Shown in pieces: positions 1,994 to 4,465 of a DNA stretch of 64,000 nucleotides. The translations under genes were made by a program, and so were the position numbers. The notes beneath the pieces are model-generated. The model worked only from the letters and a program-made list of their open reading frames with translations. It was not told where the DNA came from and made no database searches. The stretch is taken from the NCBI GenBank assembly GCA_002698425.1, contig NZXU01000085.1, forward strand, positions 1 to 64,000, read 5' to 3'. Source of the stretch: Ahrensia sp. (GTDB lineage Bacteria; Pseudomonadota; Alphaproteobacteria; Rhizobiales; Rhizobiaceae). Positions within the stretch are counted from its first letter, which is position 1. The number at the start of each line of letters is the position of its first letter.

Positions 1994-4465
1994 ATGCCAA
2001 TATCCGAACCGGTTTCCACCGCGAACTCTGTCGTTGCCGTCGATATGCCTGAGAATATCGCCAATATATCGGGCGCCGCCCCGCGCGATTGCGTCTACAC
2101 GACGCTGATCGGGGCCTACGAGCCGCTCAACGAACAGCCAGCCGCAGCCTCGTCTCGTCTGCCGTTCATCTGTTTTACGGACGATCCGGACTTGCGAAGC
2201 GACAGCTGGGAGATGCGGCTGGTGGAGCCTGTCTTTCCCACGGATTCCGTGCGCAGCCAGCGAACGGTCAAGCTTCTTGCCCATGATTACCTGCCGGACT
2301 TCGACCGGTCCCTCTATATCGATAACTCGGTTGTCCTGAAGCGCGATCCGGAGGAGATCCTCGCCGCCTATCTGGGCGACGCGGGCCTGTCGCTTTTCGA
2401 GCACGGCTTCCGCGCCACGGTCCTCGACGAGTTCATTCAGGTGGCGCGCACCGGGCTCGACGATCAGGCCCGGATCTTCGAACAATTGAACCACTACTCG
2501 GTCTGGCACCCCGATGTCCTGAAGGAGACGCCGTTGTGGACGGGCATGTTGATGCGCGACCACAGGCGGGAAGACGTACGGCGCATGATGGCGATATGGC
2601 GCGACCATGTCTTGCGCTACTCACGGCGCGACCAGTTGTCCGTGACGGTGGCGATGCGCCAGGCCGGCTTGGAGGTGACACCGATAAAGGTCGATAACTG
2701 GGACAGCTGGTTTCATTCCTGGCCGCACAAGGAGGGCCGTGTCCCATATACGGGGTTGCGGGCGTCGGACGCCGGAAACCTGCCGCCGCAAGGCTTGTTG
2801 CCCGGGCTGCAGGCCGAAAACGAGGCAAGCCGGTCCGTCATCAAGGAACTCAGGGACGAGGTCCGGCAGCGCGAGGCGCGTATTGCCGCGCTGGAAAACT
2901 CCACCAGCTGGCGTGTGACGGCGCCGCTGCGTTTCGCTTCCGTCGCGGCGAGGTCACCTGTCCTGTCTCTGCGAAAACTGGCGGCGAAGTGGCGTCGTCC
3001 CGCGCCGCTCGTCCTTTCGCCTGATGAAAGCGCGAATGCGGAGCTGTTCGACCGCGAAGGATATCTCGGCCCGGTCAGGCTGTTCACCGGACCGCAATGC
3101 GGTCTCATCCTCCGGCATTTTCGCGAGGTGGCGCAAGGCGAAGCCAAGGATCTCGCCGTCAGGCATCGCTTCTTCCACGATGTCGCAACGCGTCCGCAAA
3201 TTCGCGAATTGCTGAGGCCGCTCCTTGGCGAGGACATTGTGCTCTGGGGTGCGAGTGTGGTCGAGCGCGACCCGGGGCAGAAGCACGCCTGTCACACGGA
3301 TATCGAGAGTTCGTCGCCGGAAGGCGGTTTCGTCTCGATATGGATCGGACTTGAAGGAACCAGTCGCGATTCCGCGCTCAGGCTCGTGAGCGGGTCGCAC
3401 AAGGTCGGGCGGCCGCTTCAGCAGGAAGCGCATATGCGCAGCGTCGCCAGGGGGGAGGCGACAGACGCGATGCTCCTCGACTGGTGCCGCGAGGCCGGCG
3501 TCCAGGCAGAGATGATCCAGCCCGACATGGCCGACGGAGACGCGCTGATCTTCGACGGGCGTCTCTGGCACGGATCGGACAATTGCGGGCAGTCTCGCCG
3601 GTCGGCGCTTCTCCTTCAGTATGCGAGGGCGGATGTGCCGATCGCCATCCAGCAGCATGGCAATGTGGACTGGCCGTTCAAGTTCACCGCGAACTCCCCT
3701 CGCAAGCTTCCGGTGTCAGGTTGTGCGGCTGGCCCCGCACTGCCGGACGATCGAGAATCTCTGGACACTGTGATCCGGTCCGGCACCGGCTATGTTGCGG
3801 ACAGGAAGGGCTGGATTCCCTATCCGATCCTGCGCGGGGCCACGCCGAATGTTTCCGAGATGGAATCGCATGTCTCGGTGCTCAGCCCGGGCAACAGCCC
3901 GCATCCGCCGCATTGTCACCTGGACGAGGAACTGCTGATCGTCCTGGACGGCGAGGCCGAGATCGTCATTCCTGAAAGCGCGGATCCGGAGGGCGCGCGC
4001 ATCGAGCGAATGCAGCCCGGATCGTTCGTCTATTATCCGGCCTATCAGTATCACACGATCCGCAACGTCTCGGCATCGCCCGTCACCTATCTGATGTATC
4101 GCTGGCATGGCGCGCCGAAGGAAGCCGAGGGCCCGCTTCGCACCATCGTCCAGCACGCGAATGCACCAGCCCCCGACCGTACGCAGCAGGGCCAGGCCAT
4201 GCGCCCCCTGTTCGAAGGGGAGACCGGCTTCCTGTCGAAACTGCATTGCCACGAGACCGTGATGGGGGCGGGGGCCGGATACCCGGCGCATGAGGATGCG
4301 CATGACGTGGCCATCGTCGTTCTCGAGGGCGCGGTCGAGGCCAACGGGCAAAGGCTCGGTCCGGGCGGAACGGCCTTTCATCCCGCCGGCACGTCACATG
4401 GCCTCGCTAACCCCGGCGCCGATCCCGCCCGCTATCTCGTTTTCGAGTTTCATCGCGGCGCGTGA
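1994..4465 (+). CDS. Fusion protein: DUF616-type glycosyltransferase, PhyH-like dioxygenase and two cupins
   Basis: An 823-residue protein with four recognisable modules. Residues about 32-240 resemble the DUF616/TOD1 glycosyltransferase-like domain (VYTTLIGAYEPL, FICFTDDP, LYIDNSVVLK). Residues about 270-310 form a short charged helix ending in ALENSTSWRVTAPLR, a linker often seen in bacterial glycosyltransferases. Residues about 345-545 look like a phytanoyl-CoA dioxygenase fold with Fe(II) ligands H434-x-D436 and H526, and Arg near 535 for 2-oxoglutarate. Cupin 1 has H640-C-H642, a following Glu and H687; cupin 2 has H766, H770 and H802. All metal motifs look intact. There is no signal peptide or membrane helix. 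The start is preceded by a weak AGGTAG. Function is unknown; glycan or lipid modification by sugar transfer plus hydroxylation is inference only. Confidence 0.8.
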   Translation: MPISEPVSTANSVVAVDMPENIANISGAAPRDCVYTTLIGAYEPLNEQPAAASSRLPFICFTDDPDLRSDSWEMRLVEPVFPTDSVRSQRTVKLLAHDYLPDFDRSLYIDNSVVLKRDPEEILAAYLGDAGLSLFEHGFRATVLDEFIQVARTGLDDQARIFEQLNHYSVWHPDVLKETPLWTGMLMRDHRREDVRRMMAIWRDHVLRYSRRDQLSVTVAMRQAGLEVTPIKVDNWDSWFHSWPHKEGRVPYTGLRASDAGNLPPQGLLPGLQAENEASRSVIKELRDEVRQREARIAALENSTSWRVTAPLRFASVAARSPVLSLRKLAAKWRRPAPLVLSPDESANAELFDREGYLGPVRLFTGPQCGLILRHFREVAQGEAKDLAVRHRFFHDVATRPQIRELLRPLLGEDIVLWGASVVERDPGQKHACHTDIESSSPEGGFVSIWIGLEGTSRDSALRLVSGSHKVGRPLQQEAHMRSVARGEATDAMLLDWCREAGVQAEMIQPDMADGDALIFDGRLWHGSDNCGQSRRSALLLQYARADVPIAIQQHGNVDWPFKFTANSPRKLPVSGCAAGPALPDDRESLDTVIRSGTGYVADRKGWIPYPILRGATPNVSEMESHVSVLSPGNSPHPPHCHLDEELLIVLDGEAEIVIPESADPEGARIERMQPGSFVYYPAYQYHTIRNVSASPVTYLMYRWHGAPKEAEGPLRTIVQHANAPAPDRTQQGQAMRPLFEGETGFLSKLHCHETVMGAGAGYPAHEDAHDVAIVVLEGAVEANGQRLGPGGTAFHPAGTSHGLANPGADPARYLVFEFHRGA

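Follow-up and report, generated by a model that had tools for sequence, protein, structure and literature searches.

A single open reading frame (ORF) in a 64,000-nucleotide stretch of Ahrensia sp. DNA (contig NZXU01000085.1, positions 1 to 64,000, forward strand; hereafter the window) encodes an 823-residue protein in which a DUF616 glycosyltransferase, a coiled coil, a PhyH-type dioxygenase and two cupins follow one another. This protein belongs to a modular family, probably glycan-directed, with an exchangeable radical partner, either oxygen-dependent or oxygen-independent. The module logic of the family is well supported: a constant double cupin is combined with varying partners, these being a DUF616, GT4, GT34, GT2 or PF03407 transferase, and a PhyH or a radical SAM domain. 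A wider proposal, which we advance tentatively and would not yet call likely, is that these proteins represent a glycan-modification module that is widespread and undescribed. In it, a double cupin would be paired, time and again, with a hydrogen-abstraction engine that is either an O2-dependent Fe/2-oxoglutarate (2OG) oxygenase or an O2-independent radical SAM enzyme (the latter of at least three lineages), the two being functionally equivalent and chosen by oxygen lifestyle, and the whole would be plugged onto varied glycosyltransferases and edit sugars during surface-glycan addition.

An intact four-part fusion

The ORF contains zero internal stops (Table 1). Pfam matched its product to TOD1_MUCI70 (PF04765; 34.7 bits for a curated cut-off of 21.4, residues 72-222), which we take to be the newer name of DUF616, to PhyH (PF05721; 46.8 bits for a cut-off of 22, residues 375-532) and to Cupin_2 (67.5 bits over two stretches, above cut-off). 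The first homologue search returned at least 246 proteins at E <= 1e-3, and domain orders were read for the query and the 120 best matches. In this set of 121 proteins, 28 present the order DUF616-PhyH-cupin-cupin, 92 present PhyH-cupin-cupin without DUF616 and one has DUF616-PhyH only. At E <= 1e-3, Pfam recognized Cupin_2 and PhyH in 28/28 of the full fusions and TOD1_MUCI70 in 24/28. The four-part fusion read by the first-pass annotation of the window is thus real, given the intact ORF, the Pfam matches above curated cut-offs and the recurrence of the order, and a frame error or assembly join bringing separate genes together is rejected, because the identical order is found in 28/121 proteins, query included. 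A plasmid origin was also discarded, the 14 matching plasmid records each covering at most 28% of the protein.

The AlphaFold models have a mean predicted local distance difference test score (pLDDT) of 86.5 for the whole chain and of 94.0 for the transferase domain folded alone; the whole-chain fold list spans residues 341-823 only, and the transferase was therefore folded and compared separately. The modelled transferase domain exhibits a GT-A fold, with WbbM (6u4b) as top Foldseek match (TM-score 0.53, 12% identity), and D110-N111-S112 occupies its DxD-like site, D110 and N111 being invariant and the third position S, T, A or C in the 28-row alignment. The long helix that follows agrees with the coiled linker of the earlier annotation. 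Downstream of it, either of two SWR-type forms of a linker motif occurs in 21/28 full fusions, and SxSW[RK]xTxP variants are found in some radical SAM relatives. Separately, we observed that the motif SxSW[RK]xTxP[LI]R after a coiled coil recurs in several kinds of transferase fusion; no paper on a linker motif of this type was found by text search of the open-licence literature.

The PhyH domain is a member of the Fe(II)/2OG oxygenase family, and turnover is predicted from its residues. H434, D436 and H526, correctly picked out beforehand as the Fe/2OG set, are invariant together with R536, presumably the downstream arginine for 2OG, in the 28 full-fusion rows and in 37 mixed rows. Its nearest solved folds are ThoJ (6zyk) and SnoN (5ep9), at 17-20% identity, the latter being an epimerase according to its PDB title.

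A hydropathy scan gave a 19-residue mean peaking at 0.99 and no hydrophobic segment suited to spanning the membrane or serving as a signal peptide. On this profile the protein is predicted to be cytoplasmic and may bind the membrane peripherally.

Exchange of PhyH for radical SAM

A genome collection was scanned with PhyH-type proteins only as seeds, and 80 of 227 relatives were kept. Two cupin matches were present in 55/80 of the kept loci, which comprise 35 with PhyH fused or adjacent, 16 with radical SAM, four with neither and none with both, so that the pairing is exclusive in this sample. The four without either partner are L031, which lies at the edge of its contig, L050, and two distant loci, L055 and L061 (28-29% identity, below 60 bits, no partner found). 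The last two stand outside the trees and the ligand count, and L031 and L050 are in the trees and outside the ligand count, which hence covers 51 loci.

Radical SAM is fused in frame to the cupins in 10/16 loci (to the first cupin only in L053) and lies beside them in the other six (L037, L043, L046, L048, L049 and L051, the last sharing the frame as a separate gene). With Pfam, run on 12 of the 16 loci, Radical_SAM was above cut-off in L037, L040, L042, L043, L045 and L051, and SPASM was above cut-off in L039, L043 and L044 and below it in L049, L051 and L052. The double cupin is directly upstream of a PF03407-radical SAM gene in L037 and L051, and radical SAM, double cupin and GT2 adjoin one another in L049. 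The separate PhyH and cupin genes of L033 and L047 carry no weight here, since sequencing frameshifts may account for the overlaps.

A search from one radical SAM-cupin protein returned 945 homologues. Among the 119 matches listed besides the query's own copy, the orders were radical SAM-cupin-cupin (106), cupin-cupin-radical SAM (6), DUF616-cupin-cupin-radical SAM (1), radical SAM-cupin (1) and radical SAM only (5); CxxxCxxC is present in 115/120 matches listed, and precomputed domains place GT4 in five. The search from the DUF616-bearing P0223 (204 homologues, 120 matches listed) added P0242 and P0243, which combine cupins, radical SAM and DUF616. P0287, ordered DUF616-coil-SRSWKITWPLR-radical SAM, parallels the window protein, except that radical SAM occupies the PhyH position and the cupins are missing.

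Radical SAM relatives were also seen in other company: many of P0257-P0303 carry a PF03407 nucleotide-sugar transferase domain and no cupins, P0304-P0313 are mostly fused to GT2, and in P0288 the related radical SAM is joined to an NAD-dependent epimerase domain. In Brachyspira, a radical SAM gene is reported in a block with a glycosyltransferase gene and two sugar-epimerase genes (PMC4267127).

At least three lineages can be told apart among the radical SAM parts. L041 and L043 are 44% identical to each other and 21-29% to the L044/L053/L049/L052 type, and the short L040 and L042 parts are 37% identical over 95 residues, with a best E of 0.001 to the other lineages. On a 53-row tree built from the cupin pair, five PhyH/radical SAM changes are required, two to three of them forced by well-supported branches, and a single radical SAM clade is rejected by the approximately unbiased test (p-AU 0.04). 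Five changes are needed as well in a quick 100-row tree, which takes in 47 chosen proteins out of 313 fetched. The number of exchanges is nonetheless uncertain, because many tree branches are weak.

The partner may, in part, follow the oxygen lifestyle. Marker and P0223 searches covered 34 of the 35 PhyH-type genomes (all except L029) and the 16 radical SAM-type genomes. COX1 was above cut-off in 31/34 PhyH-type versus 9/16 radical SAM-type genomes (Fisher p 0.007, ignoring kinship), and the anaerobic ribonucleotide reductase NrdD was found in 2/34 versus 9/16 (Fisher p 0.00018, likewise ignoring kinship). The main radical SAM part of P0223, at E <= 1e-20, matched 0/34 PhyH-type and 13/16 radical SAM-type genomes, the other three (L040, L042 and L043) carrying other radical SAM lineages.

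Metal sites of the double cupin

Cupin 1 presents the canonical HxH(3)E...H motif, as H640-x-H642-x3-E646...H687, in 51/51 loci of both the PhyH and the radical SAM class. Cupin 2 lacks this motif and has H766-x-D768...H802, a 2-His-1-Asp pattern, in what is still a cupin fold; H753, H766, H802 and E818 are kept in 51/51 loci and D768 in 50/51. The full metal motifs previously ascribed to both cupins are therefore canonical in cupin 1 and replaced by H-x-D...H in cupin 2. A JmjC_2 model covers part of the second cupin in L044 (23.6 bits, cut-off 22) and L038 (17.9 bits), partial matches that agree with the H-x-D...H pattern. The closest folds are mostly bicupin enzymes, the regulator ChrR being listed too. 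Two NCBIfam models for (S)-ureidoglycine aminohydrolase gave 26.1 bits versus a required 338 and 23.5 versus 200, placing the protein outside that family.

The first-pass annotation had suggested that the product is sensed. The cupins would then have a sensory or allosteric role, responding to the finished glycan or to a metabolite and regulating both transferase and oxygenase, a role with which ChrR in the fold list and the weak matches of the AraC_binding and ChrR cupin models, below cut-offs, are consistent. Sensing is less likely than catalysis, since the cupin ligands are almost invariant in both partner classes, even beside radical SAM, and the closest folds are mostly bicupin enzymes. 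With both metal sites kept across phyla, and with stand-alone double-cupin genes in L037 and L049, we regard a sensory role as quite improbable.

Transferase partners

The PhyH-cupin-cupin core is joined to varied glycosyltransferases. GT34 precedes it in P0029, a PF13704 GT2-like domain in P0106 and P0107 and GT2 in L021, and GT4 follows it in P0059 and P0101; in the extra C-terminal sequence of P0035, Pfam names no domain over cut-off. In Bauldia (L011) the core gene is flanked by genes for an ABC-2 permease and an ATP-binding cassette (ABC) ATPase, a pair that may form a polysaccharide exporter, followed by GT2 and GT4 genes. An ABC ATPase gene lies upstream of the core on a Myxococcaceae contig (L012), and two GT8 genes, one on each side, accompany the core gene on an Opitutales contig (L027). 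The earlier proposal of an action on sugar is supported by this variety of glycosyltransferases on one core and by the L011 copy between ABC genes, with GT2 and GT4 downstream. No sign of a lipid substrate emerged, although no test aimed at one was made. Among cultured bacteria, the core gene is carried by Pseudohoeflea suaedae YC6898 (L008) and Stella sp. ATCC 35155 (L013).

Another arrangement of similar parts was noted in Stella sp. (L013:9401-12784), where PhyH-cupin-cupin is followed by DxDWYRxxYPDVA-type repeats, seen by eye, and then by a DUF616-like C-terminus below cut-off; the called N-terminal 200 residues look spurious.

Among the radical SAM loci, 10/16 have a transferase match (L035, L037, L038, L039, L041, L043, L045, L048, L049 and L051), a count that omits the 50-70-bit matches from a query containing radical SAM sequence and in which L035, L043 and L045 were matched by queries taken from themselves. 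Alternatively, transferase and core might serve separate pathways, fused for a shared membrane or carrier lipid, the core acting on a small nucleotide sugar. The 92/121 proteins without DUF616, a few of them joined to other transferases, fit such a division, as do the usual position of the core gene away from transferase genes (as seen with limited queries) and the radical SAM-epimerase protein P0288. Against it stand the several transferase types that are fused and the presence of DUF616 on both PhyH- and radical SAM-type forms, and we consider it rather unlikely.

Proposed mechanism

The reaction and substrate that we infer are those of a surface-glycan enzyme in the cytoplasm, which would add a sugar, alter it by hydrogen abstraction and leave the cupins to finish, a scheme on which our judgement is evenly poised. 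Going by its fold and family, the DUF616 domain would move a sugar from a nucleotide sugar onto a growing lipid-linked glycan, and the coiled coil with the SxSWRxTxPLR/basic segment may keep the modules at the glycan. With Fe(II), 2OG and O2, the PhyH domain would take a hydrogen from the added sugar, leading to oxidation or epimerisation, and the two metal cupins, to judge from their ligands, might then isomerise, epimerise or otherwise complete the product. PhyH-cupin-cupin forms a cassette joined to several transferases, with a replaceable hydrogen-abstracting part; in other, often anaerobic, bacteria a radical SAM domain, often with SPASM, stands in for PhyH beside the double cupin.

Because PhyH and radical SAM exchange, we favour a reaction open to both chemistries over plain hydroxylation, for instance the oxidation of an alcohol, a dehydrogenation or an epimerisation at one of the sugar carbons. 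Oxidation and epimerisation are reactions common to Fe/2OG and radical SAM enzymes, and the PhyH domain resembles SnoN. To our knowledge, radical SAM enzymes are not usually hydroxylating.

Many PhyH enzymes, on the other hand, are hydroxylases, and the fold list places hydroxylases not far from SnoN. PHYHD1 and its relatives are reported to remove the methyl from 2'-O-methyl nucleosides (PMC12709175). The PhyH domain could accordingly hydroxylate or oxidatively demethylate the sugar (for example at an O-methyl), the cupins binding or storing metal and the radical SAM forms running a different reaction on a similar glycan. Near-invariant cupin ligands in both partner classes argue against this set of roles, and a repeated exchange of PhyH and radical SAM beside the cupins is easier if their chemistry is equivalent; we find it unlikely as a whole, and hydroxylation or PHYHD1-like demethylation by the PhyH domain is the less favoured outcome.

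Several observations weigh against the proposed scheme of sugar addition, hydrogen abstraction and completion. A transferase match fused or within 4 kb was found in only 7/35 PhyH loci, plus L021 by Pfam, with a limited query set; of these seven, L001, L003 and L013 have DUF616 in or beside the fusion, L014 matches at 56 bits, and L011, L019 and L027 supplied their own queries. Fusion could mean co-localisation rather than successive chemistry. The likeness of the PhyH model to SnoN proves no epimerisation, and proline hydroxylase H11 (19.4), SyrB2 (19.3) and EctD (18.3) have scores almost equal to that of SnoN. Radical_SAM is below the Pfam cut-off in L035, L038, L039, L044, L049 and L052 (6/12). 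The oxygen split is imperfect, as the COX1-bearing radical SAM-type genomes attest, and a kinship-corrected pair test on the tree had two supported pairs only and no power. Finally, the family is rare: 2/397 genomes in the order of G002, G002 included, match at E <= 1e-60, G002 carrying the full fusion and the other the core only.

If the scheme is true, a surface-sugar reaction is done in nature both in the presence and in the absence of oxygen, and one identical product is expected from the aerobic and the anaerobic forms. It would also give a functional handle on bacterial DUF616 transferases and on many unnamed radical SAM proteins that carry a glycosyltransferase.

Features and gene neighbourhood

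Table 1 Features of the fusion gene in the window.
Feature	Position	Strand	Detail
Fusion ORF: DUF616 glycosyltransferase - coiled coil - PhyH - cupin 1 - cupin 2	1994..4465	+	823 aa
GT-A-fold glycosyltransferase domain, DUF616/TOD1_MUCI70, residues 29-245	2078..2728	+	conserved YIDNS and RYSRRDQLS
Long helix interpreted as a coiled coil, residues 268-302	2795..2899	+	AlphaFold secondary structure
Linker motif STSWRVTAPLR, residues 303-313	2900..2932	+	sequence
PhyH-type Fe(II)/2OG dioxygenase domain, residues 346-570	3029..3703	+	H434 (3293), D436 (3299), H526 (3569), R536 (3599)
Cupin 1, residues 596-705	3779..4108	+	ligands H640, H642, E646, H687
Cupin 2, residues 726-823	4169..4462	+	H766, D768, H802; H753 and E818 kept too

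The fusion gene is adjoined by genes that we read from their sequences as fumarate hydratase and a branched-chain amino-acid ABC transporter, and within the 64-kb window the transferase queries matched nothing but the fusion gene. At 47935-52923 of the window, each strand carries a long open frame, of 1650 aa (-) and of 1655 aa (+), and the two share almost 5 kb.

The full-fusion loci L001:17396-22390 and L003:15722-22456 each have a HutD-like gene, confirmed by Pfam in L003, and a very long gene 3-5 kb downstream of the fusion, the starts of which are alike by eye. A link to cyclic-glucan synthase through this long gene is unconfirmed, its first 1000 residues in L003 being without a Pfam match.

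Comparison with known systems

Each domain family is known, and the combination and its exchange logic are absent from the literature searched: no description of the fusion or of a PhyH/radical SAM exchange was found in the open-licence literature, a corpus mostly without subscription journals and without bioRxiv preprints. Among the nearest comparable systems are the radical SAM double-cupin proteins (P0122-P0241; Omnitrophota, Scalindua and Deltaproteobacteria among the named sources), for which no known function was found. Their ligands in cupin 1 and cupin 2 are those of the fusion, and some share the DUF616 or GT4 partners and the SxSWKxTxP linker of the fusion family, but they have radical SAM where the fusion has PhyH.

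The bicupins BacB (3h7y), AerE (5zbe), YlbA (1rc6) and the salicylate and gentisate dioxygenases are 11-16% identical to the double cupin, whose second cupin, in contrast to these enzymes, carries H-x-D...H. Unlike ThoJ (6zyk) and SnoN (5ep9), the PhyH domain is joined to a transferase and two cupins. The transferase domain resembles the DUF616/TOD1_MUCI70 family by its Pfam match, its GT-A fold and the RDQLS motif, as in P0223 and P0287; it is here bacterial and fused, with DNS where those two proteins have DGN, and its activity is predicted. WbbM, which has a role in O-antigen synthesis, is a bifunctional glycosyltransferase whose entry title (6u4b) names no dioxygenase or cupin, whereas the fusion has both.
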